In this document: positions 12,001 through 56,000 of the stretch, one piece after another | Position numbering within the stretch: position 1 is the first letter of the stretch | How the letters are laid out: every line of letters begins with the position of its first letter | The notes under the pieces: generated by a model | Told to the model about the DNA's origin: nothing | The model's input: the letters and a program-made list of their open reading frames with translations, nothing else | Database searches by the model: none | From: Sipunculus nudus | Lineage: Eukaryota > Annelida > Sipuncula > Golfingiida > Sipunculidae | NCBI GenBank assembly: GCA_026874595.1 | Contig: CM049313.1 | Coordinates: forward strand, 33,290,008-33,354,007 | Direction: 5' to 3' | Length of the DNA stretch: 64,000 nt | Position numbers and translations under genes: made by a program

Positions 12001-15000
12001 TTTAGAAGATATTTTTACACTTGGACATTTATTGTTGCAGGAGTTCTGATGAGGATGACAATGTACAGGGAGGAGGCTTTTCTGAAGGTGCTGATGCAGT
12101 TGCTGACAAAGAACGCCTGGCCAGGTGAGTGCAGTCAGTTTATTAATGAAATCCTATAGCTGTCCAGGTAGAATACAGGTGTGGACAGGTAACCTCTAAG
12201 AAAGTCCAAAATACTATTCAGATACTTTCAATCGCACATATGTTCAGGTAGAATACAGGTGTGGACAGGTAACCTTCAACAAAGTCCAAAATACTATTCA
12301 GATACTTTCAATCGCACATATGTTCAGGTAGAATACAGGTGTGGACAGGTAACCTTCAACAAAGTCCAAAATACTATTCAGATACTTTCAATCGCACATA
12401 TGTTCAGGTAGAATACAGGTGTGGACAGGTAACCTTCAACAAAGTCCAAAATACTATTCAGATACTTTCAATCGCACATATGTTCAGGTAGAATACAGGT
12501 GTGGACAGGTAACCTTCAACAAAGTCCAAAATACTATACAGATACTTTCAATCACACATGTTCCGGTAGCATCCAGGTGTGGTCAGGTAGTCTACAAATG
12601 AGGCCATAGGCCATATAGCCAGGTAGCATATATGTAGTTTCAATTAACAGGTTTGTTCAGGAACTACCACACAGGTTTGTCCAGGCAGTGCAATGAATAT
12701 TAATTATACAGATATTTCCAAGCTAGATCAATTTAATAATGGCCAGCACACAGTTAGTACATAGATATGTCCAAATACAAAACTAGTGTGTCCAGGTAGA
12801 AAAGAAGCACATTCAGCTTATAGATGTACTTTTCAAGACACAGGTGTATTAAGGTATACAGAAACATCTGGATACCATGCAAATGTGTCCAGGTAACATG
12901 CTAGTATATTTAAAATATAGATAAATGTCATGGTAGCAGTATTAAACTTTAGTACACAGGTGTATCAAGATTGTATACAACTAAGATCTGGTATCACACA
13001 TATACCACACAGATACAAATATGTAGCTTTATTGAAATTCCATTATCAGGTGTTTCAAGCTTATATATTACAGTGTCCATGTAGCTAACAAGTGTCCAGG
13101 TAGTATATAAGTCAACATACAGATATATACAGGTGGCTTAAGTATATTTTGTACATGGGTGTGTCATTGTAGCATAAACATATGTCCAGGTAGCATGCAG
13201 TTAGTCCAGGGAAACACTGATGTGTTACAGTTATTTTATTTAAAGGGACCTGGTCTGCGACCAGGTATGTTAAGTATACATGAAATAAAGTGTATTCACC
13301 TTAGATATTATGGTATCTTTCAATGTTTCATTCCAAAAGAGTTCACTTACACCTGTACGGAAGTAGCAAAAAGCTTGCTCCAGATGTGATCAGTGGGACA
13401 AAACTTAAACGCTCGTGACCATACTGTGCAACTTCACAAATCAAGGAATTTCAAGATTCCAGTAGGTGTGTATTCCATGTTTCTTCTTTTTGTACGGACA
13501 TGGTTGAAGATACTATGCCTGTGTGGCAGAATGGTTTTGCTGGGAAACTTTTGTGGTAAGCCAAAAAAAAGAGATAATAATTAGGGATAATACATATATT
13601 AATAGCAAATAAATATGAGCCTTTTTATATTTGTCAAAATAAGTACTGATTCAACTTTAATGTGATTTCTTTGGAACTGTCACTTTAAGGGTAGTGATTC
13701 CTGTAAAAATCTTTAAGATTACATGCTCTAACATCGTGGCACAATCTTCCAACACAATGGCAAATTTTTCATAAAACTGCTCTGTCATGCTTAGTCGGCA
13801 ATAATACTAGGAATCTCATAATTTAGATAATTTTGAAAAATGAGCCATCATTATTGCAGTATGGTATTGTTTATAAGTAGGCAGACAGTTATTTTATCCA
13901 GGGAACATGGTTAATTGACTGTGTGTCAAATTTTCATGGCCATAGTCTGTACATTTGATGTAAAAACAGTGTAAATGGGTTATTATAGTCTTGTAAAGTG
14001 TCATTAACATTGTGTTGTAGGTATAATGTCTACAATAGTTATTTTATAACATGATTCAGATGACCAGGTTTATCTCAGGAAACATTTGAATCAGATGGTT
14101 AAAACAACAGTAATAAGTAACCAATTTAAAATTTTGATAATTTTTTTCAGAAGACATTGGTGAACTTACCAGTGAAATCTGTTCAGGATATTTAGTGTGT
14201 CAGTACAGGTCTCTTCCTTAATGTGAACATGCCATGGACAATGAAAGCCCCGTTTTACTGTTTACGTAGATAAGCAGATTAAGTAAGAGCTTAAACCATC
14301 TATAAACCTAGAAAAACATAGACATATAGTGTGTAGGGTAAGAGTAGAGTTTGACTTGGACTGAGCTGTTCTGCATGGATTGTTCATAGGAAAGATGTCC
14401 ATGTGATTACAAAGGTTCTTACTGTTTATTAACTGTTATCTTCAGGTAATTTTCAGGTCAAACATGTAGGTTATAATATTTTCTGTTCTCAAACTCCCCA
14501 GAAGATTTTCCAAACTTATTTCCAGATATGGATATGATCCTTCTTGTAGATCTATCACAGAAACATTTTATATTATAAAGTAAATGTGCCTGTTACATCA
14601 TGAATTCTGATACAGATGTTCTGATTTTATCCATAGACTTGCAAACAGGTGAGCTCACCTTGTCTACCTTCTGAATGTAGTTTTATTTTAACACCCCCGT
14701 CTGTTAAAATGAATAGAAAAGCTGCTTGTGTGAAGCTTACGGCAACTTGGGCTCAATATTCCAGGTTTTAATTCAGGAGATGCATAGTATATGATACACC
14801 CTTCTTGCTTAGATGATGTTTAGCACAGTTTTGCTTAACCATTGTTACAATGCGTCATGTGATTGTAAAAAAAAAATAAAATATCCAATACCAGTGCTAT
14901 TCCAGTTCCTCAAATGTTAATCTCAGGTTTCATTTTCTTCATTATCCTTTTCTATCCAAAGTCATCTTCAGTTTCGGATTTCCTTGTATATTCTTTACAT

Positions 15001-18000
15001 TTATTTGATAATTTTTTTCAAGCATGCTTCCTACAATCAGAGGAAATATGACAAATATAAGCAAAAGAAAGGACTTGTGAGCAGTTCCTTATCATTGGAC
15101 CTTATTAATGTGCCTCAATAACAAGCATCTTACACAATTTAATTTGATTTAAAGGTGCACGTTTTACCAAAAATGAATACATCTTCTCGTGACTGTAAAT
15201 ACTTGATTTTGATAATTTTCCTAACCAAAATACTGAGATATTACACATGTTCTTGGTTAAATCCATGGTCACAGCACTGCACTATATATTGCTATTTTTT
15301 AAAAACACAAAATATGTTGCAAATGGTGAGACAAAACCTGCTGAATTTCATGTGAACCCAACCATGCTGTCAGATCCTATTTCATGCCATGTAAATATAC
15401 AATTAATCAAAGGTAAGTTTTTTCAGTTTAATAAAATAACTGTACTTTATTACTTTCAGTTCTTGTTTCTTTTTATCTATTTTCATAATTTATTTTATTA
15501 AATTTTTCTTTTGAAAAGTATTTGTTTCCTATGAAAGACAAAGAAACTACTCAATCAAATTTTTTTTATTAATATTTCAGTTATGACGGCCATTTTTGCT
15601 TGGTTTTGAGTTTTTAGCACGTTATTTATTTTCATTTTACAATGTGTGGCAGTGCAAGATCTGTATTCCAGAGAGAGTCACTGTGAAATTGAGCGACGCA
15701 GGAGAAACAAAATGGCTGCCTACATAAACGAACTTTGTGACATGGTGCCCACATGCAGCACTTTGGCCCGCAAACCGGATAAGCTGACCATACTGCGAAT
15801 GGCGGTGTCCCACATGAAAAACGTTCGAGGTAATGGAAGCAGGCTGCATTCCAAAATTCATGTGCTTGCTGGCCATGCCAACTGCATACTAGCCCTACTG
15901 TTGCATCGCTGGGCAGTGTGTGGCGCCCTCTGTGTGTGGTTGCTTGTACCAGTGCTCCTGGCTTGTTTAACATGTTTCAGGCCCACCACTGTGATGACTG
16001 ATAGACTGTGCCTCATGTTTAGTGCATGTTGTCTGTTTGACCAGCCTTCCTGCCTGGCTCTTGTTCTTCTCCACCACAGCTCCCTGTCCTCCCAAATTTT
16101 GTGGCAACACAAAGCTTTATCCACCAAAACCTGCTGACATAAATGCAAAATAGGACCAAATTCTGAAATAATTCCCATGCTTGTAAATATAAATATTCAG
16201 CATGGTCTGTTTCCAGAGTTTTGTTTTCCTGTTTATTTAAGTCTTTAAAAGTCTTTTCAAAAGTCTGTTTGGTTGCATTATTATGCTAACATTTCAGATG
16301 TCATCAGAAATGGTGCATAGAAATCTTATTACTTCTTGAGCCCCCAAACTTTATATAAGAGAAAGGTTTACAGTATTTGATACACAGCAGGATAGATATC
16401 TGAGCCTTGTGTTGTACATTTTAACATGCTCAGTTCTTTGATGGTGTTACAGAGAAAGAAGTTCTAAAAAAGTCAGTCTCTGAATTGAAAAACTTAGCAC
16501 ACCCTACATCAGCTTTGTTCAATTCCTTTAAGTTGTATTTTTGATTGGTATTAGAACTTTCTGGTGATAACTTTATAATTTATCATTGGAGTTGCATAAA
16601 GCACTGTTTTTCAAGATTAAACTTTTACCTATTGATCAAGAATATGACCATCAACTAATATTACACTTAATTTTAAGTCAAATTATATCAGGTAATGGCA
16701 GATTTAAAGAATGTCCAACCATATTTTATATTCTGACCTGTTAAACCATATGTAGAAGAGCCAATTTTAGACAAACATCGTGTACACCAGTGGAAGGACT
16801 CAGTATGTCACAGATTTCAAGCATCAATGGACTGGTTGATCCTGCAGAATTGATGTCTTTTCCCTTTCCTCTTGGAGCCTGGTCAGGATGGATGTGGTTA
16901 TATACGAGGATAAGGATGCTGTCCTCAACCAGTTGTTCGTAGTGAGGTCATGAGTGTAGTATCCTTTCTTTTGTTCCTTACATGATGGTCATTGTTCTGT
17001 TTGTAGGGAGAGCCATTGCGAGATTGAGAGACGTAGGCGTAGTAAGATGGCTACATATGTGAATGAGCTTTGTGACATGGTGCCTGCATGTAGTACTTTG
17101 GCCCGCAAACCCGATAAACTGACTATCTTGCGCCTCGCTGTGGGTCATATGAAGGCGCTGCAAGGTAAACACAGAGAATGGCGTTCATCCCACTTCTGAC
17201 ACCGATTTTCCAATTTTGGTCTCACAGAAGAAATTCACAATCAGTACTCAAACTAGTGGTCCACATTACGCAGTAGCTGACCAGCACAATCAAATCTCAG
17301 CATGGGTTGTCCAAACTGCATGTTCTAAGTGTGCATGTTGTTACGTATGATCTGTAATTGCTCACGTTTCCAAGCTTTCTATATCACTGCATGCTTCCTG
17401 CTTGGTGTTGGATAACCAGATCATAGTATGATGTTTTAATTAACTTCATGTTTACCTAATGTTTGATATAGGTAGCATTAACAGCCTTATTTTGTGACCA
17501 ATGGTTTTGTAGAAATGTTGCATGTGTGCCATCCCTGTCATCCAAAAATGCAATTTTTCAGTCGGATTTCAATTTATTAATTGTATTTTAGCTTTTAACA
17601 TTTTCCAGTCAGTGCTTACAGAGTATACTAAATCTGAAGGAAACTTTAGTTATGAGATTATTCAAAGAGTGCTTATATCACACTGTAAAGGCAGTGTTAA
17701 TAGAGATATTTCCAGTTTAATCATTTTTTCATATTTTCACTGTTGCACCATGTATTTGTAAATGCTTCTTCCATCACTACTGTTTCTGACTCAAATACAG
17801 TAGCTTTATTCTTTTGCACATCATTCTTTTAAATATTAAGTAAAATGCAGGGCTTGACATTCAGAGCTGTCCAGTTGTCCAAGGGAAGTAAAACAGGCTC
17901 CTGCTGACTCTAATCTGTCTTTCATCGGAAATATACAGTTGTGATACATTATGTGGTAATATAGAACCAGTGTTCCAAGGTAGTGACATTTACCTACCAT

Positions 18001-21000
18001 ATGTTTTGTTATATCATTGGGTTTACATATACAATAAAACCTTTCAATTATGAACAGTGGCTGGACCTGGATTTTTTCAGATAAAAGAGAGGTATCTGTT
18101 TTAGAAAGGTTAACCTGTAATAATCCAAATCTATTGCTCAAGGGACTTGCAAGCAGTTGTTTGCAAGCAGTGGCTAAGTGATAAAAATCAAAAGATAGAA
18201 TGCAGTGAGAACACTGGGTAAGGAGTGTTGGACAGCTGGAACAGCACAGACAAGTAGGTAATATCTAGCCCTGTTTTGTTAGAGGCAATGATTTTGACCA
18301 CCATCCTTTTTTAGGTTTCTATGTAAACCTGCTAATTAGTCAGTTTGGGTTGCACATAAAAAGCTAGTGTTAAGGACATTATCTAGTCTAGTAGCTTGGA
18401 AATAATGAAAATCAATGTTTTGAATAATTTACAAAAATAAAGTAATTTTTCAAACAACTTTAAATGTAGATTTAAGGTCATAAGATCACCTGTTTATGGA
18501 ACCTATAGCCATAAATCTCAACATTTTGTTGATGTCCTGATCACAGTCAGTTGTATACACATATATATCAATAATTGATTATTATGTATGTCAGCTTTTG
18601 GTGGTGCCACCTACTTTGACCTATTTTTGGAAACCATGTTTCCCAAATTTACAAAAAGTCATATAAAATTCTTCATTTTGAATGCCTAATAATAAGGTTT
18701 ATAAAATATGCATTAATTGCAGGCTTTCTAAATTTGGATCTTTTTGGGACTGTCTTAAGAACTGTGAAATATTGTAAATTTTTGTAAAATAATTGATGAA
18801 TTCCTTTTAGGTATGTTTTCTGGAATATATCTAAACAAATGAAAAGGAATGTTTTCAAGTTTGTATCAAGGCTGTGATATTTTTTAAATAATAAAAATTG
18901 AGCACATTTGAAATATTACCATTGCACTCCTGTCAAGAGTCTTGAATTTGTTTTAATAAACCAATAAAGTCATATAAAGTAATATTGAGCTTTTGATGGT
19001 ATAGCAAAATTAAGACATAATCAGGTAATTATTATAGGGGGAAATAGTCCTACTCCTTGGCTATAGCATAAAAAAAATGTCATTGATATAATCCTATGGT
19101 TAATCAAGATTATAGGGGTATTCATTTCCATTTTACTTGGAGGTCACTCATTATATATGCAGACTTATCCAGAATTCATTGATTTTTGCATCACAAACTT
19201 GGATAATGCCTTTAAATAAAGTTTGCTCTCTGTTGGAAAAGTATTTTGCCTTTTCAGCAGGAACTGGTAATTCCGGCAGTGATGGCTCCTACAAGCCATC
19301 ATTTTTAACTGATCAGGAACTGAAACATCTAATTTTGGAGGTAAGTAATGTTTTGTTCATCTTTCTGTTATCAAGATTCGTATGAATTCCATTTTTTGTA
19401 TACCACAAAAATCTGTGTAACTAAATTCAATCCAAAGGTTATTTTAAATTCATATAGAACCCAGTAAAGTATACATTATTTTAAACTAGGTACGTAGATG
19501 AGTCTTGAGATATTGTTGTTAAGTTTATTATTTGTCCACTTAAATTTGTTTTGCAGTTACTGGATTCCTAAAATAGTGTACCTTTTCAAAATTTTAATTT
19601 TACAAAATGTTAAAATATCATGTGAAAGTGAATGGAAAGTTAAAAAATATGTATACCATCAGAGGGAACATTGTAAAAGCTTTAAAAATAATGTATACTT
19701 TATGGGGCCCATTATGAATTTAAAACAACTTTTGTATTGATTAAAAAAAGTTTTTTTTTGGCCATGCATGTTACCTTGCTGGTTAAAAAAGTGCTCAACC
19801 CTCTGATGCTGTCAGCTTGTCATATGCTACCACTTGATTTGTTCTACATTTTTTAGAAAAATATTTTCAAAGGATATGTCTTTGATAATTTGTGAAAGTA
19901 ACCATAGGTTAAGAATGTTTTATTGTTATTAGGTCTTCTTGATCTCAAGTTTTATATTCATTGGGCTCACAGTTATCCACAAATCATAACCTATCATGAT
20001 AACATTAGATTGAATTTTCTAAATTCTGTCAAGCTTTTACCATATGTCATTTAGGTACTGTTTGGGTTGGAGCTGGGGACCTCTAATAGTAAAGTCCAGT
20101 GAATTAACCATTAGGCTTTGTCCTACCCTAGAAGGAGTATTCTTTTTATTTATAACATTTTTAACACCCTTCATCCAGAGGGCCTGGAATTCTTGTCTCA
20201 ACTGTCAAACTTTAAAATGAAAATAAGTTACATTTCAAGGAAACATCTTCTGTTGACATTCCCCTTGTGCATACTAACAAAAATTGTTTTTTTTTTTCCA
20301 TAAAGTCCTTACCACAAAAGCACCCATGTTTATGTAATTTGCATGAAAACTATTCTTATCCAATACACTTAAAGGGACTACATTGTCCTCATCACTACAT
20401 TTATACCTACGCCGCTGGTGAATATAGGAGCCCCAGTGCATTGTGGGGGTCATATTTTAACTCCAACAATCCCTAAACAGCAGTGTCGTACTGTTGGGAG
20501 TCAGAGTTAGTGCAGTGTTCACATTTGGATCAAAGTTTCTATTAATCCTATTAATCTCAAATATAAATATCATGGTCTTGATTCTAGACCTGTGACTGAT
20601 TAATCTGGCACCTTGAAGGGACTTCCTGGTATGCTCAGCCAGTTTATCAGTCACTAGTTTTCTTTAAAACATGTTACACTGTCTCTTGCACTTGATTTCT
20701 TTTTTGTTTTACTCAATGTGATGAAGAGTCAAGCTTTTACATTTGTAAACATAATGTCATATTAAGTACCATATATCCCAGAAACAGCAGGAGCTGATAC
20801 CATAAATTTTGCAGACTTATTTTTCTGTGATAGCCACCTATTTTGGCATATCAGGAAATGGTATTTCTTGATTCAGTATTTGGTCTGCTTTTTTTCTCAC
20901 AATCATGCACAATATTTGAGTCAGTGTAAGACATGACCCTTCAATCTCTTGTTCCGTCTGTACACAGATACTCTACATCCCAATAAAAACCATCTCCTTG

Positions 21001-24000: not shown

Positions 24001-27000
24001 TTCTCCTGTCCTCCTGTTTATTCCCTTATTTTCATATGATTCAGGCAACTTGGGAAATTGTCTGTTCCAAAGGCAAAAAGAGAAAACTGCAGTTCACTGA
24101 AATATTAAATTTGGGATATCAGAAAACAGATAATTTTTTCAGCTTTAGCTGATGCTGTCAGTACCCTCACCAAATGGATTTGAAAGAAATATTGCAAAAA
24201 AATTAGACTGGGGTGCTGGAACAAAATATGTATTGTCTCACTAGTATCAGTGTTAGTATTACCTGAGTACAGGTGTGAATCAACAGGTAAGTGATCAGTT
24301 ATGATTTGTGTTGTTTTTTTTTTCAGGCGGCTGATGGGTTCCTGTTTGTGGTACAGTGTGACACGGGGAGAGTTATCTATGTATCAGACTCCATCACACC
24401 AGTGCTGAACCAATCACAGGTAAGGATCTCTATTACCGCTTCTCAGCAACCACCTCAGACAGCTCCTTTCAGGGCTCGACATTCACTTTGAAAGTACTTG
24501 CCTTCTTGAACAAGTAACATCTAGCTTTTACTTGCCTTACGAATTTTTACTTGTCCTAAAAAATCAGGGATGGGAGCCACAAATACAAAACGAGTGTTCC
24601 ACATGATTATTTTGAAACAATAAACATGTTCTAATGTTTCTATTGTTAACATTATTTCTCTTTAGCATTTGTACAGATAAACATGCAGAAATTTAAGATA
24701 AAAATATTACAATATAATTTCATTTCTCCAAGAAAGAAAATGGCTTACTTAAGAAAAATTCAGGCTTTTGTGTAAAGATTTATTTTGGACCCACCTGCTC
24801 AGTTGAACATTAGGAGCCCACTTTTGGTTGCCCTACTACCATTTTCTGATACTTTTAATTGCCCTGGGCAAGCAGACAACTGTTAATGTCGAGTCCTCTC
24901 TCTGCATATTAGTCCTAGTACTGTGAACATACTCATATTGTTCATATCCATAGCTACTGCACTTTGATTGAACTGAAGGTACGTGGATATCTCAGACCTT
25001 GGTGATTATCTAGGACCACATTCCGTACAGTCTCAAACCACTATCTCTGAGTTTCACAAACCATGGACTTGTTATACCATTTATAAAAACACCAGTTGTT
25101 TTTGAATTTTTCCAAGTCTTTTTATATTTGTTTTTAAGATAATTATATTTATGCTTTGTGTGTTCATAATGACGTATTCTTAGTGGTGAAATCACTAACC
25201 TTACAAATTCTGTTGAAAATTTGGAGAGATTACTCAAAGGTAAAATGAGTTTAATGAAAACAGGGGATATAAGTTCTAATAACTATTCCAAACTCGGATT
25301 CATAAAAGTATAAGCAGGGAGAGAACTTTATTTGAAGGGGGTTTAGATCCTAATCCGAGATCAAAGTGGCTGGAACTGAGTCGTCCAAGATCATAGGTCT
25401 CTGAGATCGTAGTGGTCCAATCTGAAGGGGCCCGACTTTGTGTAGTCTGAGCTTGTAAAAGTTTGAGATCTCCAGAAAGCCTACTGATAGGGTCCACTGT
25501 TGGTGTGACGTAGGACATTAGCTAATGTGTTTTGTGGGGTTCTGCTTTTCCATGGGATAATAACACAAGTTGATGTGGTTTCTGATAGATTGTGCTGTGG
25601 TAGATCATTCAAGGGAAAAAATGTTGGATTCCTCCACATTTATTAGAGAATAAAGGAAATGTTCCCCCTAAGGACACATTTGGCATCTCCCTGATAGGTC
25701 AAGACCAAAAACAAGCATTTCCAAGCGGTGGCCATGTAAAAGATTTTTTACAGTGTTTGAGTGCCACCACCATCAGTTATAATGTAGATTAATATTAGTT
25801 ATCAGCTTAATTAACAGAAACCAACTCCTGAATCAGTGGATAAGATCATGCCTAGCATAGCTCACAATAGGAAGTGGTTGTACCTCTGTTGTGCTGGCTA
25901 GTGAAGTGTTTTCACACATTCAGCTTTGCCAGTGTATGCAATACCCAACAAGCTTAATGTTCATAATACTTTATTGAATGGCCACACTGTCATCTACACA
26001 ACCAACCATGTACAGCCACTCTATTTTTACAAAGTGCTCCAGTAAAACACTTGTATACATATGCCTGTACCATTTCACATTCAGAGACAACTTTGCTGTC
26101 AGTTTCATTCATGCTCGGTACCTCACAGAGCATAGTGGACATCACATGACCTGTGATGCTTGTTGATTTCATTCAGGGATGATGAGTCACCATGCACAGT
26201 GACTTCACACAAACCATGAAGCTTTTCAATTTCATTCTGGGGCGTTATGTCACTGAGTACCCTGAGGGCCAGGCTAATATGAGACCACTGTATTAAATAC
26301 ATGTATAAGCCATTTTTGCCCTCAGGCATTGATATGGTCTTTGAATGACGTTTTGTATGGCGAGGGCCTCTGTGTCTGTGTGATATTACTGATTACATGC
26401 ATAACTGGTTAATAATACAATGTTCTACCTTGTCATTTAACATAAATTGCAAATGTTTAGATAAGCTGAGCACCACAGTAAAAACTATGCAAGTTTCACT
26501 TATAGATGAAGAATATATGATTTAACAAAGGGATCACATGCCTTCTTTATTTATATTTTTGCTTCCTGCACACATGTGAAACTACTCTGTCAACACAGGT
26601 GTTATTTTATTGAGACCTCAACAGTACACACATTTAAGAGCAAGCAGTACTTAATGCCCCCACCAGACAACATGTGTTAACTTTAGAATAAACTGAAACT
26701 GCCTGCAGAGCCATTCTCTGTGGGGAAAGTCACTGGGTGTAAAGTGGTTAAACTGTTAAGCATTTTCAACAGTGCTTTAACAGTTTTTATGGACTGTGCT
26801 TTGCTAGTGGTTTGTAAATTATCATGAGGAGGGGAATATGGCAGAGAGAAAGAAACAGGGTGACCAGCCATTCTGGAAATCATGTTTGTTTGTTTTTTCA
26901 GTCAGAGAAAATTCAGGGAATGCGTGAAAACTGACTAAGATTATGTATTATTTTTGATAGCACAAAAGAAAAATTGTATTTTTTTTTTACATGTCTCATG

Positions 27001-30000: not shown

Positions 30001-31769
30001 AGATACATCATCAGTGCTTAAATTAAAAAAAAAGTTTACAATTCAGTAATGAATATAGAATTGAAAACATGGATTTAAACAGAAGGCCAATTGTACATTT
30101 TAATAAAGCTTTGTTCAGATTTTGAGTGTATGGACAATCTAAAAAAGGAAATCAATTACAAAAACAGAATTGGGAGTTTACCGTACCAGTAACAGTTTAA
30201 TAAGACAGAAATTCACAACCCTGCAAAACTCTCTGCATATTTTAATTTAATTTGTAACAGTGAAAGGTAAAGTTATTGTTGAAGACACCATTTCTTATGC
30301 TGCAGGCATTGGTAACGCAGTGTCTCAGAGTATTTTCTTGCAGTTTTCTTAAACTAATTGAATTTAAACCTCTTGTAGTTTATATTGTTGATGCTACAAC
30401 TTATTATTGTGTCTTTGGATTTTAATCAAGTTTTCCATTTGTGTGCATGCCTTTTTGGAATTTTATATTTTCATTAAACATTCAGTAAATTCATTTAAAA
30501 AGTGCTTCAGCATTGCCCTTATTATTTGAGTTTAAATGAATTTATCTTTTCATATGTTTAAAGATTGACTTGTCATCACTGATTTGATTCAGCTTGCCTG
30601 ATTATGAGAGGGAAAAAAATCCACAACAGTCAAGCTTACTAATTATTGTACTCTTCTGCTATGTTCCTTTTTATAAAAATATCTCTCTTTGAAATATCTT
30701 TTATTAGTAAAAAAAACAAGTTTTTATCCAATTTTTAGATCTTCACATTGTGTTTATCTCTTGAGGTTTCCTAATTCAAGCAAACTTTTCAATCTCATGG
30801 GTTTTCCTGAAAAAATTGCACAATTTTTCATGTTTTCTGTACTTTTATATGGAAAATATTCACAGGTAAGAACTTGGACCTTGCTTCCTTGTCTCTAAAT
30901 TCATTGTGTTGGACATACTATCATAATTTATCAAAATTATGGCTTCAATCCAGTGTTGTTCATGAAACTGTCAGTACAGTATGTATATGCCACAATGAAT
31001 TTAATTCAGCTGCCTCTCTAAGCCTGTGGGTCACAAGAAAATTCTATATTCAGTATGTTGCATTTGGGATTGAGATGTTACCATATTACTTGGCTCGTAA
31101 TGTCTTTGGTTGTGGCCTGGGAATAGCACAGCCTTGTAGATGAGAACTTCCTTGGTTTATTGAGGGTGCCTCTTTACACATATTATGTAAATACTATACA
31201 ACAGTCAGATGAAATTAATAGAAGTATCCCAGAAGTCCTCTGTGTTCTTTTCACCCTTGTTATTTGAATTACCGACACTGGGGGCATCAATTTCTTGCCT
31301 TTTTGTCTGTGACTTTATCTCCATTCACGTCATTCTACCTGTGTTGTGCTTGCAGTCAGACTGGTTTGGGAACAGTATCTTCGAGCTGATTCACCCAGAT
31401 GACATGGAGAAGGTGCGAGAACAGCTGTCTACTTCAGAATCGCAAAACACCGGCCGCATCCTTGATTTGAAAAGTGAGCATTTTATAACCTTCCAGGCCC
31501 AGGCAGGTGGAAACCAAATAAACTTTTGTCACAAGTGGTACTCCATGTGGCCTTGGGCGGCTAATCAATTGATGCTCCCAACAAAATGAGATCAGCAGCC
31601 TTATACTATTTTTCCTAGGGGTTAGAACCTGATATGATTTTATCTTATTTGAATAATCTTAAATTATACTTATTCAATTTCACCACAGATTAAATCAGTA
31701 CCTGATTTGCCTATTATAAGATTATAAACCTTTAATTGATTTACTTTTGCTGTCTGGATTTAAATTACT

Positions 31770-32018: not shown

Positions 32019-35000
32019 ATATTTCTTTAATTAACATTCAGTATTGATTATATTTCAGCGGGAACTGTCAAAAAAGAAGGCCACCAGTGTGAGTATTTAC
32101 TTTGTAAAGTACTTATATTACAATTACAGGGCTCAAACAATTACAAAATATATCATTACTAGTATTTCTATAAATCTCCTCTCTCTGACAAACAATTTCC
32201 GTATGCCATATTTTGATTACTTATATTTCTTCTAGGGTTCTTTGCAGGGCTCTGTCAAACAGTGTGCATTTTATTTCACTAGATAATCCTGTTGGTAATT
32301 TTTTTTTTATATATGTAAAAAAAATTGAAAAAAAATACCTGAATTTATGGTCCAGTTCCAGTCTCTAGAATAAAATGACTTCATTTACCATTTCTTTATC
32401 TCATTTTGGACTCTGATGAAGCATATGAATGTAACAAAGCCCACATGATTAATATCATCACTTTTATATTGCTAACTGGAAAAATATTTATACATTGTAA
32501 ATAAATAGTAATAATTAATTTATTTGTAGCATCTGTGCGTTAATGCTTTGTACGTTAATAGTAATAACTGATTTATAATTTGTAGCATCCATGCGTTTAT
32601 GCATGGGATCAAGAAGAGGATTCATCTGCCGGCTAAAGATTGGAAATGTACCAGTTGACCCCATGACCTCCAGCCACACAGTGCGTGTTCGGCAGCGTAA
32701 CACTCTGGGTCCATCCACAGACGGACACCAGTACGCTGTGGTCCATGTGACTGGTTACATCAAGAACTGGCCACCTTCTGGTAGGTCTGCCCAAGGTACT
32801 ACTCATTTATCAACAGAATTTTTATGTTTACAAAATTCTGTATGGCCATATGGGTACAGCAGTGTACATTGGTATAAACAGCTGCCGGGCCTTAGCACAT
32901 AGTCCATATACACCAATACCTGTCATGAGGGGACACCTGTGGGATATAGCCAAAGAGTCCCTGCATTGCTGGTGTCGCTTCATGAGAGGTAGGGACAGGT
33001 TTAGTCAGGGATAATTATTACTGTACAGCGATACATTCAACAGTTAAAGAGAATCACATACCAGTAGATATATAAAGCAAAATGTTTATATCTCAATAAT
33101 ATATGATAAAAGTATTGATATGAACATTTAATACAAGAAAGCAGATCCTTGACATCTTAATTAATGTCTTAATTGACGTCTCTTTGAAGAGCCTATTCAG
33201 TCAGAAATACAAAATCTTATTAACAATGCGTCATGTGAATAGAAAAAGTAACTAAAAATTTTTTTTAAAAAGTTCTTATAATATTTGTTATATTTCTTAA
33301 TTATATATAATTTCTTATTAAATATAAAAAATAACCCCCCCCCCAAGACCTTCACCAGTTTGGCCAAACTTAAATGGTAGGAGGAATTTTGGATAGTGTA
33401 GCATATAAAAAAATGTGCATTCATTTCAATTTTTAGCTAAGCTTACTCTAATTCATCTGAGCTATCATCATGGTCCTTTGTCAGTGGTCCATCCCTCTGT
33501 CGGTCTGGCTGTTAACAAGGCATGTTTATAAACCGTAAGACTTAAAAATCCCAAAATTTGACAAAGAGTAAGATGTCCCTAAGTTCTCCTATCACAGCAA
33601 AAATTAGGTCACTGTGACTTTGTTCCTTCAAGAAATTTGGAAAATCCAGAATTTTTCCTAAAAAATAGCTATTGTTACACTTCAAGACTGCTCACTATGA
33701 AAACCGCTGGTGTTTTGTTCAAATAGGGCATATATATTCCTCTTATATTTCCTATGCACTTGCCAGAAATAAGGTCAAAATTGTGTAAGTTTAAGAATTT
33801 ACGGACCTGAACAAAAAGTACATTGTCAAAACATCAGGAAATAATACTAACCCACTATACATGTTAACAGTTGAAACTAGAGAGTCTTTTTAGCGAACCT
33901 GTGAGCTTATGCGATGGTGCGGCGTCGTGCGGCGTCTGTTGTGCGTAGTGCGTTGTGCGTCGTCTGTACGTTAACCATAGCTATCTCAAAAACGGCAGGA
34001 GCTAGCATCACCAAATTTTTTGCAAATAATCAGTCATCCAAAAACTACATCGGATTTTGTTTATTTTTTTCCTAACAGCATTTTCTTAGATTTTATAGGG
34101 AAAAAGCTAAAAAAGCTTTAAAAATCTTCTTCTCCAAAACTGTCCAGCCAAATTGTCCAATATTTCACAGGAATGATCCCTGGAACAATCTTTCTCAAAT
34201 TTGTTCGAATGAATCCAGTTCAGAGATTTTTGGCCGAGATACAGGAGGTTGAACTTTGTTAACTGTGCAAAAAAGCATATTAAAATTTAAATCTCAGAAA
34301 CAGCTGTAGCTATCATCACCAAATTTCATGCCAATGTTGGTCACATAGGTCATATCTAAAATAGAGGTATTGGTGGCGCCACCTGCATCGGCCTTTTTTG
34401 TACAGGGTCATCAGTGCCTGTATCACACTGAAGGCTACAAAAAACTTCTTCTCTGAAACCATATGGCCAAAATGTTTAATATCGTACAAAAATGATCCTA
34501 GGGTAGTGCTTTTAGGGTAGTGTTCAAATGGTCTCTTTTCAGTGACTTTTAGCTAAGTTATGGGAAGCTGAATTTAGTCATATGCCATAACAGCCCATTT
34601 TAGCTCAGTGGCTACAAAGATCCTCTTCTCAAAAACCACTGGGCCAAATTCTTAAATCTCACACATTAATTACCCTCAGATGTTGATAATTCAAGTTTGT
34701 TCAAATGGTTTTGGTTCAGTGATTTTTGGCTGAGTTATGGGAAGCTTAACTCAGCCATTTTGCTGTATTTTCCCATATGAGTTATAAACCTGCGAAACAT
34801 TTTTCGACTGATGCCACTGAAGCCAGTTTGTTAAATATTTTACAAGAATTATTCCTACAATAATTCTTATAATTATTGTCATTAATGGTTCAACATGAAT
34901 GATTTTTTGGCTGAATTATGGAGATTGAATTGAGTCATTTACCATATATGTTAGCTGTGTGATGCTGTTACATCTAGCCTGGCACCAGTTTATCAGCATC

Positions 35001-38000: not shown

Positions 38001-41000
38001 GAAGTTTTTAGCTCAGCTGACTGTAAGTCATCTGAGCTATAGCAATCACTCTTTGTCCGTTGGCCGTCCGGCCATCCGTCCGTCTGTCCGTTAACAAGGC
38101 ACAAATCGTAACCACTGGACCTGGAATCTTCTAACTTTACATCCAGAGAGGTCCAGGAAAAATCTCCTTGGAAACCTGGAATTTGGTGTCTGTTACCCAT
38201 ATTCTTCAAGCTATGGGGGTCCAAAGTACCCCCCAGAATAATGAAAAATTTGATACAAAAGCTCAAATATCTGAACAACTAATGCATTGATCACCATGAT
38301 TCTTTGCATGGATATTGATCATGGAGTGTTTCTTCAGTTTCTGCAGACTGGTGGCACCACCTGTATTTTTTTATTTTTTATGATTTTTAGCTCAGCTGAC
38401 TATAAGTCATCTGAGCTATAGTCGTGATCCATTGTCCGTCGTCTGTCCGTCCGTCCGTAGATGAGGCACGTTTTGAAACCGTAAGACCTAGAAATCCAAA
38501 ATTTAGCATAATGTTAGATGTCCCAAGATCTCCTACCAAGCCGAAAACTGGATCTTTGCGACTTCGTTCCTTTGAGAAATTAAGGAAAAACCTCAAATTT
38601 TTATTAAAATCCTATTTTCACACTTCAGGACTGCCTTATATCAAAACCACCATTTTTCCTCATATTTACCATAAATATTCTTCTATATAGTTCCTATGTA
38701 CATGCCAGAAATTAAGTCTGTTTAGTATAAATTCTTAGAGTTATGGGCCCGAACATAATGGACTTTGTAAAAAATCAGGAAAAATATTTACTCACTTAAC
38801 ATGAAAAATTTTGAAACTAGAGTCTATTTTCCCAAGTATATTACTATGTTTAATTAAGATTCAATTGTTTACACAAAATTAGATCTGAAGTTATTAGGAT
38901 AAAAATAAAATCATGACCTTAAATTTTGCCTAACTTTAACCATGGCACTTTTTTTCCTGTATGTACATTTGATTTAATTTTCACAGCATGTAAACATAAA
39001 TATTTCATTTGTTTAAATCTGAAATTTGAAAATAAAAGCTTGAAAATAAAGCTAGTTATTGATATTTTTCTTGAGGCTGTATTGTAGTCATTTGCTTTGA
39101 TTACAGATTACAGATGCAGGGTCCCACCCCAGGTCACTGGAAGTCAGCTATGCCAGGGTTTCTGATTTGTTACAGTCACTGGGGGAGATCCCCTGCTGTG
39201 ACAGGTGTACAGTTATTCTCATATCACCACCCCAATCATCCCCCGCCCCCCCCCCCCCCTGCAAACCCAACCCACCAAGTGTTATGCAGTAATTGTTATT
39301 GTTTTCACTGTATCTCCTTAATTGCAATGCCGTTTCCACTCCGATATGCAAAAACTTTCCTTGAAAAAGTAATTCAAGGTGTAATCCAGAAGATGCAATG
39401 TTGTGTAATGTAGCATGTTTAAGGAAATCAATTTTATTTTAAATGATTTTAACAAATATAATTGAACCCATCAGTATGCTTAAATTTATAAACTATGAGG
39501 CACATTATGGATAAGTAAAGACACAATTAAACATTGTGAAATCTAAATCAAGTATTATTTTTAGATATTTGTTGTTATGCAGATTTAAAAGATATATTTT
39601 TGTGGTAAAAAATAAATAAACATTTGTATGCACAATGTGGTGGTATCTGACAAGATTGAGATTTATGATGATGCAATTGAGAATTATGAATCAACTTTTA
39701 TATTCAGATATATATGTTATATTGGAAATGTATAGAAATATAAACTTAAATTAAAAAAAAATTGATGTGATAAAAAAATGAGGATTTAATACAAACATTT
39801 GTTCATTATTTTCCTGCCTCAGCAGAATTTGAGATCAGGCTTGTTTGCCCTGTTTTATGTTGTTAATTAGTTATAATTCAGCTGTATAGATTTAATAAAA
39901 AAACATATATATTTAATAATATATATTATACAAAAAAATAAATTCAATTGTACAAATGTATAAACTACTGAAATGTCAACAGTTAATTAAAAAGCCAACT
40001 AATGATCATGGTAATAGTCCAGATCATTTGTTCACAAACTGCTCACATGCTTCAGTTTCAACATTAGGAAACACATGGTAAGGTCAAGAAAATATTATTT
40101 GCAACAATTTCTTGCTCAACAATACAAACCAATCATATAAACCAACCATGGCCTTTATTACCTCTTCCTCTTTCACTTTATCTCCATTTGATATTATATT
40201 AGATTTTTACCTTCAAGGTCAACTTCAGCTGAGCACAGTGACCCATGGGTCCCTTGTTTTTCTCTATTTTTGAGACCTAAAAAGATGCCGTTATTAGCGA
40301 ACATGTGAGCTTTTGCGATGGTGTGTCGGCGTCCTGCGTCTGTACGTTAAGCCATACTATCTTGAAAATGGCAAGAATTAGCATCACGAAATTTTATGCA
40401 TAAAATTAGTCATCAAAAAAACTCTATCGGATTTTGCTTATTTTTTGGCTAACTGCATTTTCTTAGATTTTATAGGGAAAAAGCTAAAAAAGCGTAAAAA
40501 ATCTTCTTCTCTGAAACTGTTTAGCCAAATTGTCCAATATTTTACAGAAATGATTCCTGGAACAATCTCTCTCAAGTTTGTTCGAATGGTTTAAGTTCGG
40601 TGATTTTTGGCCGAGGTACAGGAAGTTGAACTTAGTCATCTGTCCAAAAAAGCATACTAAAATTACAATCTCAGAATAGCTTGAGTTATCATCACCATAT
40701 TTTATGCCAATGTTGGTCACATGAGTCATATCTAAAATTGAGGTATTGGTGGCGCCACCTGCATCAGCCTTTTTTAGCTCAGCTGACTTTCAGTCATGCT
40801 GGGCTATAGCGATGGGTCTTTGTCCGTCGTCCTTCCGTCTGTCCGTCCGGCCGGCCGGCCGTCCGTTAGCAGGGCACAAATCGTAACTGTAGAGGCTAGG
40901 GCCATGAACCCTATGCAGTCTTAGAGGTTATAAAAAGATCTCCTTGCAAACCATAAATTAGATCACTGCGACCTATATTCTCGAAGTTATGGGGTGTGTT

Positions 41001-50000: not shown

Positions 50001-53000
50001 TTCAACTACCATTTCTGTTGAATTTATGTGATTAATGGCTTTCTCAGTGTACACAATGATGAATTGTAGGTAATACCTGTTAGGAAAGGTTGTTATAACA
50101 CATCTGTGATGGCTGTATGAGCTTGTTTATATACAAACTGTTAGTTAACATGGTACATGCTCCAATGTTGACCAACAGAAAACCTGTGTAGCAGTTGGTT
50201 GGTTGCATATGTGTGGAAATAAAAAGGTTACTTGTTTCAAGAAGCCCTTGCCAAGACATGTCTTTGTTGAATGTGTTTGGATTATTTTTATGGGTCCCCC
50301 ATATGTTATAAACACATAGATATAAACAAAGTGAACAGCCTGTGTATGGAAGGAGAGGTATTTTCTGGCCTATTTTTATAAAAGTTTTAAGGGATTATCT
50401 TTAGTTATATAACAGACTTCGAATATTGAATAGGCCCTTTTAAGCAATGAATCAGAGAAATTTTCACAAGCTCAGACACAAATGACATACAAAAGTTGTA
50501 CCTAATTAAATTGTTTGTTGAAACAACTGCAGTATCCTAGAGCTGGCAGGAAATCATCTCTGTTGTGGTCAGCCACTATATATAGGTTCATCCAAAATGG
50601 AATTGTCTACCTCAAATAGTGGCAGAGACTAATACTACATATTGAGCTATCTGTCCCCTCAGTGCAGTCAAACCCCGCTCATCAGCGTAATATCCTGTAA
50701 GGGAAGTTGCTGATTGACCCAGAAGACAAGAAATTATTATACCTCCATCAGGAAGCAAGGTGTTTCATTTCTCCCTTGGTTGGTTGGTTGGTTTGTCTGT
50801 AAGCGACTTTACACAGAAAGGTATGAACAGGTTTTTATGAAATTTTATTTAAGGTTAGATAACACCCACAGAACAAGCCATTAAAGTTTGTAGATTGTCT
50901 GGTTCACCATTATATGTTCCCAATTCCAAGGCTTTTTATAAGATTGTTACATAGGATATTTTTTATCCGTATTAAGGCCGATGTCATTCATGGCTATTAG
51001 AGGATGTTTTTGTTTTAGAGATAGCCTGTGCTGGAATTTTTAATCATGATTTACCATTTGTATGCAGCAAAGTTTGGTCTGCATCCTAGCTGATGTGTCC
51101 AGGTAGCCTCTAACAGCTCGTTAAACATATAATAACAGTTCCTGTGGTCTAAGGGTAGAGCACAGGGCTCAAAGTAGGGAGATTATGAATTAGAATTTCA
51201 GCAGAGGAGTGGTGTGATTTTCACGGTCAGCCCCACCCAGACTGAGTGCTCTGCAGACAAAATGAGGAGACTGTCCCCTATAAATGTGTTTCACTCACCA
51301 ACAAGTGCGCCTTTTGGGGTTCCTTGGACCCCAGAGCCTGGTTTGCACCAGGATTATCATGTGTCCACCCTGTCATGAAGTCTGAAAACAGAATGGAATT
51401 CTGCAGATGAACATAGTTCTAGTTAAGCCAGCATTATAAAAAAATGGAGGTGGTTACCTCCACAATAAAAAAAAAGAAGAAAAATCTGATTGACATGTGG
51501 ATGTTGATTTCAGGTGTGCAGCTAGAGAGAGCAGAGGAAGATGGACATTCCAGCAGCCATTGTTGTCTGGTGGCTATCGGTCGCCTCCAGGTGACCAGCA
51601 CTCCAAGCTGCGGTGACCTCATGGGACCGAACGCAGCGTCAGAGTTCATCTCCCGACACAGCATTGATGGAAAATTCACTTTTGTTGATCAGAGGTATGT
51701 TGATCCATCAGATTGATTGGTAAACAAAACAAATCTTGTTTACTGTCACATGCTAGTTAAAACCCTGATACAAGAAACTCACCTAGAACAGGTACCCACT
51801 GTTCCATCCAAGAACTACATAACATCCAAATTACAGTAAATCTCCTTTTGTTGAACTAAAGTAAGTCAAATACCCCTCTTGTATCAAAGCCAGTAATTAT
51901 AGGTCCATTACTTAGTAAAACCTGCTCCTTTCTGATCGTTAATGTGTTGTGTTGTGTTGTGTTAATGTGTTGTGTTGTGTCTTGTGTTGGTGTCTTCAAC
52001 ATTTATTAGGTTTTCATTTATTTCAAAGAGAGATTCTGTCTGATGCATAAGAAAAACAGTTGGACCTGTCTAAAAGGTGACCTGTCTAATAAGAGCTCCT
52101 TTCCATTAAGACCACCCTCGAGGGAACTGAACACATTCACATTGGTATAACAGACCTATCTGTCAGACCCCTTGTGATGAGGAGGACATTTTGCCAGAAC
52201 CACAGGTGGTCTTATTATCCTAGTTTTACAGTACATGAGTTGTTCAGCAGTCACATACCTAAAACTGAGGCCCTCAGCTTAATTAACCTGATAGGTGGGA
52301 TGCATGTGATATTTTAATTTTATAAAAAATATACATGTATTTTGTGATTTCAGAGTAACTGCTGTCCTTGGTTACCAGCCCCAGGAGTTACTAGGGAAGT
52401 CTGCATATGAGTTCTACCACCCAGAAGATCAAGGTCACATGAAGGACAGCTTTGAACAAGGTGGATTTTATCAGATTTTGTATCAACCAATGCACATTTT
52501 TGAGATTTCATTAATCTAAACAGAAATGTGCATTCTCAGGAATGCCGGCCTCTGCCATGTGGCTGGTCCTCAACATGGAATGCTCCCCAAAATCTGATTC
52601 TATTTCTTATTCAGCCCATACTTCTAGGTTCATTCGTGCAGAAGGTCCCCCCCCCCCCCCCCAACCTGTGTTTGCATTCACCTTTTCAGCCCATATTTCC
52701 ATGTTCATTCATGCACAAGTGACTAAATTTGTGAATATTTGTGGATGTCCTTCGTGGACACGAATCATGAAGTGGATCCACAGCATAATCTAATCAATTC
52801 TTCCTTTGCCCTGAATATTTCATGAGATTCCGTTCATGACTCCATGAGTTATGTTGTGAACACACACACACACAAACAGGAATGAGTGCATACCCACCTG
52901 GCGATTATAGAAAATGAACCAGCCTTTGACTGTCATCTTCTGGACTGAGTGTATGCAGATGTTGCCTGAAAAATAGTGAATGTCCAATTAAAATGTGCCC

Positions 53001-56000
53001 CTCAAACTTGTACTTTATAATGCCCTTAAAACTGTTAACCAGTCCTTGTTGGTGTGGAGGTTTTGTCTGTTCATGTCAACACTATGTGCAGACTTTGTCT
53101 GTTACTGCTTATCACTAGTCTGACCTCATCCTCATGCTATATGTTGGATAAATTTTGATAAGTTATTCCATCCCGTTTGAGTACTATCTGTCCATCCTAG
53201 AGGATGTGCATTCACTGGAAAATCTTTTCTAACCAGCCTTATGTAACAGCTATGCATGCCTCTCACTCCAACTACTGTCAGATAACAGAGGTCAGTCAGT
53301 CTGAAGAAGTCGGTCACCATGGTCAGTCAAAAATGTCAAATTAAATGTGAATTCAATCATAAGACTGCGGTACCAGCATTATGAAAGGCATAATAAGTAT
53401 TGTGGGAATTAATGACCTTAATTAAGCTTGGTTTGGATAAAGCCTGGTAAGTCAAGCACTCTTCAGAAGACATAAATTCAATCTTTTGCTTTCTTGCTTA
53501 AATGACTGGTGACTGATGGATTAACACCCTTTCCCATTTACACTTATTTTAGATTACAGACAAATTTGGACATTCTTTACATTTACATTACGGGAAACAT
53601 TTTACTCATCTTTTATTGTATCTTTACCAAATTTTCAACATTTCCTACAGGGTGGGTTTGCTTAAGGTTAAAGGGAATTTTTAGATCTGAATATGAATTT
53701 TCAATATGTTTAACCTTGAGAATATAACCCTGTGATGGGGCTCTAGATGCCATTTTTTGAGTGCACTTTAGTGACCCTGCACAGGGTAAATTAAATCAAC
53801 ACTAGTTCATACAGAAACTGAAATTGAGAAAGCTTTAAAAAAAAAATAAGTATAATCCCTCCCTGTATGGCAACTGGCCATGGGCTAAATTTAAAAACTC
53901 TGAACAAAATGTTTAATATGAAGTAGCATGATATCAGTCAAATGTTGCCCTACAGAAAGAGGGAAGTATGATGCTTGTAAGTTTGATTGGCATAATGATT
54001 TGTACTGGACGTTTTTATTTTTTATATCACAGTGCTACAGAGGAAAGGTCAGGTCATATCGGTGCTTTATCGTTTCCGTGCAAAAAGTCGTGAGTGGATT
54101 TGGTTGAGAACTAGCAGCTTCAGCTTCCAGAACCCATACACAGATGAGACAGAATATATTGTCTGTACAAACAGCTCTGCCAAGTGAGTCATTCTTGTAG
54201 TAATCAATTGCTGTTTAAGTTTGACTTGCAATAACACATAATAACACTCAAGCATGAGATGATACTTTCCATGATGACCAGTGTCTTTGCAACATATATA
54301 CAAGACGACACTTGAGTTTGGGTTAAACTTAGTGAGTTCCATGTTACAAAAAGCTTTCATATATAGCTACTCTGTTGGTCATTCAGGATTTAATCTGTCA
54401 AATAACATGTGATTTCTATGTATATCATAGATGTATCATTCAAACAATATTATTAGTCATTAGCATTAAACCTGTAAGGCAGGGGCGGATCCAGGATTTA
54501 GGAAAAGGGGGGGGTCCAACCCAGGAGGACTAATGAAAATCCTAAAAAAAAAGGTCATCACGTCTGGAAAAGGGGGGGTCCAGGCCGCAAAATTACGTCT
54601 AAACCCCCTTAAAAAAGGTTGCCTTGGGTGAAAAAGGGGGGGTCCGGACCCCCTGGACCCCCCCCCCTGGATCCGCTTCTGTAAGGCACCAGGTAATTTT
54701 GTTTGTATTACAAACAAGTTAGTGTTATATGCAACATTTTACTGTCAAATGTGGATGTTGGTATTAAATGCAAGTTAGGATTATATGCAAAGGTTTACTG
54801 TATTCATGTTACCAGGCAGCAGAGCAGCAGTGGGGCTATACAGAGCACTCCTGAAGCGGCAGGCCAGGAAGCTAATGTCACACCAGGCAGTTACATACAG
54901 GATAACATTGCCAGCAGTCGCCAGCCATACAGCATGTACCCTGACATGAGGAACCCCCTGACAAGTGAGTACACACACACACAATCCACAGGCATTCTCC
55001 AGTCATACAGTTTGAACCTTGACATGAATAGCCTCCCTGATGAGTACACACACGCACACACATACACTCACACATACAACAGGGAGCAAAATAAAATTAA
55101 TAATTAGGGCTATAACATTCAAAGTTTACCTTCAAACAGTTCAAAATAAAAATTCTTGCCAAATTAGAATTAGGTAGTAGAATCCTGTATCATGTGTGTT
55201 AATTTAACAAAAACCTAATATTTAGAGAGAGTTTGATGTTAAATGGCCCTTTAACCCCATCCTAGATGGCAAATTAATAGAGGATTTTTTGCCTTTTGCC
55301 ATGTCATGTCAGTATTTAATTGTATTCCCACAAAAAGTAGGGATACTATGGTTTAGGTATGGTTGTGCTGCCACCGCCGAGATTTCTTTCAGGCGGGATA
55401 ACTCGAAAAATATTTTACAGATGTTTACCAAACTTGACATGTGCATGGATATGGGTGGGAGGACAAACCCTGTATAAATGGGGTAATGACCCTAAATAAG
55501 AGAGTGACCTTGACCTTGAATAGGTCCATTTTGTGAGAAAATCACAAAAAGTCTTAAATATCTCAAGAATCTTGCATGGATTGATCCAAAAATCAAGTTG
55601 ACCAAAGATCTTGGATAGTGTTGTCATGTACCAGAAGTTGGTGATGCCACCTATTATCATTTTCTTGTTTTCATGCCATTGAATACCCCCATCATTGCCA
55701 CTTGACAGTACTGTGAGCATTATAAGTCAAAAACTAATGGACAGATTTCTTTCATATTATGCACATACAAAGATATGGGCTATGGGATGATGTATATTTA
55801 AATTGGGATCATGGCCTTTCCTATGAGAGTGGCCTTGACCTTGAATATTGCCATATATGATGAAAATCATCAATATTTCAATAAGGGATGCATGTATTGG
55901 TCCAAAATTCATATTTGACCAATGATCTTGGATAGCTTTGTCTTCTGCAAAAACAAGTGGTGCCACCTTCTGTCTTTTTTTGTTTTCGTACCATTTAAAA

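Follow-up and report, generated by a model that had tools for sequence, protein, structure and literature searches.

A probable pair of mutually exclusive bHLH exons in the ARNT gene of Sipunculus nudus

ARNT, the partner protein common to the pathways that sense oxygen and pollutants, tends to be regarded as invariant and general in its pairing, specificity being assigned to HIF-alpha, AhR, SIM and the like. The closest described arrangement to the one reported here is that of TCF3 (E2A), where exons 18A and 18B are mutually exclusive and give E12 and E47, respectively, in a choice that depends on PTBP1 and responds to hypoxia (PMC12585103). As we read the ARNT pair, a shared dimer partner is in both cases encoded with alternative bHLH exons, of which each mRNA takes one; TCF3, unlike ARNT, belongs to another branch and has no PAS domain. 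In COE/EBF, an exon for the HLH motif is tandemly duplicated, the duplication is vertebrate-specific, and the duplicate is under ‘mandatory inclusion’ (PMC2394523); the same duplication is cited in a part of PMC7693978. This too is a tandem duplicate of an HLH dimerisation exon in a transcription factor, but it is included by default, whereas the ARNT pair would be used one or the other.

More generally, a survey of human exon clusters describes homologous tandem exons inside folded domains, as in the ARNT pair, and reports lengths not divisible by three for 377 of 629 clusters; ARNT is named 0 times in the main text, the part of the survey to which this count applies (PMC5740500). Among invertebrates, an oyster study describes one CgARNT with a conserved bHLH, unlike the paired exons found here, and a CgHIF-alpha-like gene with four isoforms that differ N-terminally, one of them without the bHLH; within its main text, ‘mutually exclusive’ and ‘alternative splicing’ have 0 uses (PMC5096685). 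Our search for literature on ARNT exon pairs or ARNT splicing in molluscs and other invertebrates, with most subscription papers outside its reach, found no description. The sequence-only reading of this DNA, which our analysis follows up, likewise knew of none; for ARNT the literature search agrees, but the arrangement itself is known, both in TCF3 (PMC12585103) and in the E-protein gene of this same genome.

The ARNT locus and its two bHLH exons

The window, that is, the whole 64-kb stretch of DNA analysed, is matched by human ARNT in tblastn from 15640 to 58219 on the + strand, with the bHLH and the parts that we take to be PAS-A, PAS-B and the C-terminal region following one another in order. 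The C-terminal match is weak taken alone (E 0.24), and a stray match at 40088–40153 (E 1.7) is out of order. Judged by these similarities, the gene is ARNT, a class II bHLH-PAS gene. Its placed features are:

12041–12124, + strand: shared upstream exon, encoding an acidic stretch and ADKERLA(R); donor CAG/gtgagt
15672–15829, + strand: exon A, a complete bHLH of the canonical ARNT type; ag/AGAGAG ... CGAG/gtaatg
15830–17006, + strand: intron separating exons A and B, 1177 nt, GT-AG
17007–17164, + strand: exon B, a second complete bHLH; ag/GGAGAG ... CAAG/gtaaac
19261–19340, + strand: shared downstream exon, start of the PAS-A part
24327–24419, + strand: exon, single match in the window
31356–31473, + strand: exon, single match in the window
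32059–32088, + strand: micro-exon of 30 nt, single match in the window
32586–32780, + strand: exon, single match in the window
51514–51694, + strand: exon, single match in the window
52354–52460, + strand: exon, single match in the window
54033–54183, + strand: exon, single match in the window
57908–58228, + strand: C-terminal coding stretch, with a match at 57908–58219 and a frame that stays open until a stop at 58228

All 11 placed exons have AG before and GT after. The micro-exon falls in the PAS-A part and encodes GTVKKEGHQ; with its AG/GT borders and a length that is a multiple of three, it could be a cassette exon. A minisatellite (12161–12589, fading to about 13300; 80-bp unit, 5.4 copies, 96% match) starts 37 nt past the donor of the upstream exon, and its units bear three donor-like CAGGT[AG] words. 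The segment 12125–13300 holds 27 of the 64 such words found across the 64-kb window, and 240 bases of the minisatellite, searched against the genome with simple repeats skipped, returned a single location.

Exons A and B are each 158 nt long, with intact AG/GT borders. They share their starting phase, each completing a split Arg codon (AG/A in A, AG/G in B), and their end phase, each finishing one base into a Gly codon (G/GA). Either exon alone between the shared exons keeps the reading frame, and the product of exon B joined downstream is that of exon A with nine replacements. Splicing A and B together brings in a TGA 17 codons past the junction codon, and skipping both gives ...LARNW-stop. 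Because either exon keeps the frame and both or neither yields a stop, mutually exclusive use, one exon per mRNA, is the best reading and, on the strength of the reading frames, a probable one. The frame rule is nonetheless a filter on products, a common safeguard and not proof of exclusive splicing, since reads joining both exons occur in 83 of the 377 human clusters whose lengths are not divisible by three (PMC5740500).

Chance likeness to a bHLH can be dismissed, because the two exons score 50.5 and 47.3 bits with the HLH model of Pfam, well over its cut-off of 20.7, and ARNT structures rank first for each of them in a PDB search. A fresh reading of the sequence found the coordinates and counts of the sequence-only reading for both exons to be correct. 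Its description of two 158-nt exons with identical phases, intact GT/AG sites and a whole bHLH each was re-derived; a recount agrees that 32 of the 52 whole codons differ, 23 silently and nine with a replacement; and the stops that it had predicted with both exons (TGA) and with neither (AGG-AAC-TGG-TAA) were obtained when the splice joins were translated.

Residue differences, selection and alternative readings

For comparison with human ARNT, we used a query that is the same as the PDB chains over the bHLH stretch. Exon A has the human residue at 46 of 54 positions and exon B at 40, while A and B are identical to each other at 45 of the 54. The replaced sites are, in human numbering, 103, 107, 109, 118, 134, 137, 141, 142 and 143. 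As the human residue is kept at seven of these nine by A, at one by B and at one by neither, exon B appears, with one outgroup, to be the mostly derived copy. His94, Glu98 and Arg102 are unchanged in A, B and human ARNT; by alignment with Max, these are the base-contacting residues of ARNT, and Leu142 is given as a possible member of a hydrophobic interface (PMC2568859). Five of the nine replacements fall within the final 11 of the 53 residues, which make up helix 2 and its exit (hypergeometric P 0.013, for a stretch picked after the positions were seen). Given identical base-reading residues and this concentration of replacements, a difference between A and B is more to be expected in dimerisation or bHLH-PAS coupling than in DNA preference. 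The sequence-only reading had proposed two ARNT proteins with distinct modules for both DNA binding and dimerisation; the two modules stand, as two selected exons used one or the other by virtue of their length, but a change in DNA preference is less likely than one in dimerisation or bHLH-PAS coupling, since the residues that read the bases are the same.

A less specific function, which we consider unlikely, is that A and B are used singly and encode equivalent proteins, the second copy serving to buffer splicing or to set dose through poison-exon control. The nine replacements are mostly mild and the base-reading residues are kept, and mRNAs with both exons in or both out stop early, all of which suits such a role; on the other side, the replacements look clustered by the post hoc count just given, and a redundant copy that stayed unspecialised for this long would be unusual.

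How long that has been can be gauged from the exons themselves. They differ at 43 of 158 nt, and the 42 differences in whole codons are distributed 10, 4 and 28 over the three codon positions. By the NG86 method, dN between A and B is 0.119 and the synonymous distance is past saturation. When both copies were simulated as neutral, 0 of 5000 runs had nine or fewer replacements, and 81% of runs contained a stop; when A was restricted to silent changes and B left neutral, the number of replacements over 1500 runs ranged from 15 to 30 with a median of 23, compared with the nine observed. The simulations thus indicate that exon B has been under constraint for most of its life. In blastn, the match between A and B (E 5e-26) runs from 11–12 nt upstream of the exons to a point 11 nt short of their 3′ ends; on the same strand, nothing better than E 0.44 was found between their flanks beyond the exon match. 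The absence of flank homology beyond these 11–12 nt, taken with the constraint, argues for an old and selected exon duplication, as opposed to alleles or a segmental copy of recent date. The age estimate leans on a small exon, as just 6 of 14 fourfold sites differ between A and B, and the evidence for selection is drawn from one genome; a little gene conversion between the copies is possible, runs of identical codons leaving room for it. The earlier claim that both copies are long-lived and selected is borne out by the simulations, by the unrelated flanks and by the dN/dS comparison that had been proposed along with it, in which dN, rounded, is 0.12 and dS is saturated (NG86).

These results weigh heavily on the idea that exon B is a relic, formerly used and silent now, with A making all of the protein. 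That A is nearer to human ARNT (46 versus 40 of 54 residues) and that B carries most of the replacements would fit such a history, but exon B is free of stops and has kept its splice sites after synonymous saturation, and a cluster of GCATG motifs, described below, lies directly downstream of it. Neutrality of B is rejected across its whole history, so that a very recent loss alone could slip past, and we regard this reading as improbable.

It is more doubtful still that different promoters are at work, exon B being supplied by a first exon located between it and A, in which case the choice would be transcriptional and not one of splicing. The intron of 1177 nt opens with 308 nt (15830–16137) that are GC-rich (51% G+C versus 36% for the window) and carry an open frame of about 102 codons continuing from exon A beyond its donor, which could be taken as a sign of such an exon; however, the acceptor of exon B has the same phase as that of A for the shared upstream exon. 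Retention of 15830–16137 would truncate ARNT after the bHLH. A second copy of this segment was sought in the genome, and the sole match was the segment itself; a transposon origin was considered for it and for the GCATG region, and was rejected for both, each having one genomic match, itself. Finally, an assembly artefact, in which allelic copies or another, collapsed ARNT locus had been set in tandem, has a negligible chance of being correct, given the 43 differing nucleotides and unrelated flanks, the single ARNT locus found, in an 80.9-Mb contig, and the single match in the window of each of the other placed ARNT exons.

The reading that we prefer remains an old tandem duplicate within one gene. 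Searched against the 1.43-Gb genome, the exon B peptide gave three matches, namely B, A and an exon on contig C14 that is presumably BMAL-like. Accordingly, the search with the bHLH peptide found neither a retrocopy nor a second ARNT, masked stretches being invisible to it. A HIF1A bHLH query, used to look for doubled exons of the HIF/SIM type, gave 7 matches in the genome with E no higher than 1, none of them lying near another. Relatives of exon B were also sought in prokaryote genome contigs and in viral contigs, and none was found, as expected.

As a separate observation on the assembly, a COX1-family search gave 11 matches. These fall on the small contigs C60, C61, C62, C66, C72, C74, C75, C89 and C123 and, weakly (E 2e-8, with one TGA inside), on C5. 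The oxidases on C60 and C123, read directly, are bacterial, the matches on C61 to C89 are near-equal to that on C60, two of them being on C89. In the scan, the C60 oxidase came closest to that of an Oligoflexia MAG (59%). No intact mitochondrial COX1 was recognised among the 11 matches, of which those on C60 and C123 were read. The small-contig oxidases suggest a poorly known associated bacterium present in several strains.

Exon choice and a parallel pair in an E-protein gene

Sequence features near the exons offer some indication of how the choice between them might be made. One stands out downstream of exon B:

17300–17524, + strand: five clustered GCATG motifs (TGCATG in four cases), about 135–360 nt past the exon B donor

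Rbfox proteins recognise GCATG, and sites located downstream of an exon favour its inclusion. The cluster is the densest run of GCATG in the 64-kb window, and no second copy of it was found in the genome. Only 1 of 5000 dinucleotide shuffles reaches five GCATG; in 20 control regions of 4.8 kb the maximum per 400 nt is five in one and four or fewer in the other 19, and 98 of 88,000 control windows reach five. This test was made after the cluster had been noticed by reading. An exon resembling an Rbfox RRM is present in the genome, the best of 8 matches being 78% identical and covering residues 33–73 of the 80-residue query.

The donors of the pair are also unusual within the gene. G is found at donor position +5 in eight of the nine other placed ARNT donors and in neither exon A (GTAATG) nor exon B (GTAAAC). 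The acceptor tracts do not single out the pair, since their 11 and 13 pyrimidines of 22 fall within the 11–17 of the nine other ARNT acceptors. No strong complementarity that might support competing RNA pairing was seen between the introns, the best inverse match by sequence comparison having E 0.12. Steric exclusion and a U2/U12 mismatch were considered for A and B and rejected from intron length and border type, the intron between them being 1177 nt long and both exons GT-AG. In the human survey, steric exclusion, defined by a donor to branch point distance of <50 nt, and U2/U12 mismatch apply to 9% and 0.79% of clusters, respectively, and so are not obligatory (PMC5740500).

A comparable pair exists elsewhere in the genome. 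Among 54 HLH matches listed, a lower bound, only two same-strand pairs have their members within 5 kb of each other, that in ARNT and one in an E-protein gene region on contig C4 (7187569–7191017):

C4:7188209–7188354: E-protein bHLH exon, 146 nt, AG/GT borders
C4:7189832–7189977: E-protein bHLH exon, 146 nt, AG/GT borders

The two exons have equal phase, differ at 49 nt and at 16 of 48 residues, and are flanked by an exon ending in ...QANNARER and an exon holding ERNLNPKAACLKRREEEK. TCF3 or TCF4 chains come first for both in a PDB search. As with ARNT exons A and B, an Arg codon is split at the border and the length is not a multiple of three; the E-protein pair differs in starting after the ...ANNARER of the basic region, whereas the ARNT exon includes the whole basic region. 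By sequence and layout, this is the E12/E47 arrangement in an E-protein gene. The shared partners of the E-box class and of the PAS class would thus each have a doubled bHLH exon in the same genome.

GCATG is frequent here as well. The 4.8-kb E-protein segment has 16 copies in the sense direction versus 2 of the reverse complement, CATGC, while the 20 control regions have 0–9 (mean 4.5). Shuffles of the segment average 7.3 copies, with 16 attained in 4 of 2000. The flanks of the segment, each 5 kb long, contain 7 and 6 copies, and the counts for six further HLH loci of 3.0–4.0 kb run from 1 to 5. The excess is spread and not clustered, as the densest 400 nt of the segment holds four copies. 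It is at most suggestive, because it was tested after sighting and one of the 16 copies falls inside a 34-nt tandem repeat; the same holds for the wider pattern, tested only after it was sighted, that both pairs are set in GCATG-rich introns.

Two probable forms of a common partner

Taken as a whole, the locus has a real, old and selected exon pair, most likely mutually exclusive, in an E12/E47-type layout within a gene usually seen as constant, and two kinds of ARNT are its probable products. The pair would have arisen long ago, when the bHLH exon of a single ARNT gene was duplicated in tandem, and each mRNA would then take exon A (canonical) or exon B (derived), to yield two ARNT proteins identical outside the bHLH, while mis-spliced mRNAs with both exons or neither would be lost by nonsense-mediated decay. 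The want of G at +5 in both donors, together with the GCATG cluster after exon B, leads us to infer that the choice between A and B is set by trans-acting factors, and a putative Rbfox protein could use the cluster as an enhancer of exon B inclusion. Going further, a single splicing programme of the Rbfox type, for example in nerve or muscle, might reset the E-protein and ARNT networks by acting on the hub of each and leaving the specific partners unaltered, an idea that we put forward as speculation with the odds against it.

Both forms of ARNT would be expected to read the same E-box half-site; their differences would lie in helix 2 and where it joins PAS-A. Most probably, dimers would change in strength or geometry, self-pairing being affected relative to pairing with partners such as HIF-alpha, AhR or those of the SIM type. 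A difference of this sort in dimer behaviour is attributed to E12 and E47. Exons A and B would moreover constitute a natural swap experiment, in which nine residues are changed and the rest is fixed. If the second bHLH is real in use, the common partner itself becomes a switch, and the parallel E-protein case suggests exon duplication as a way of diversifying dimer networks at the hub.
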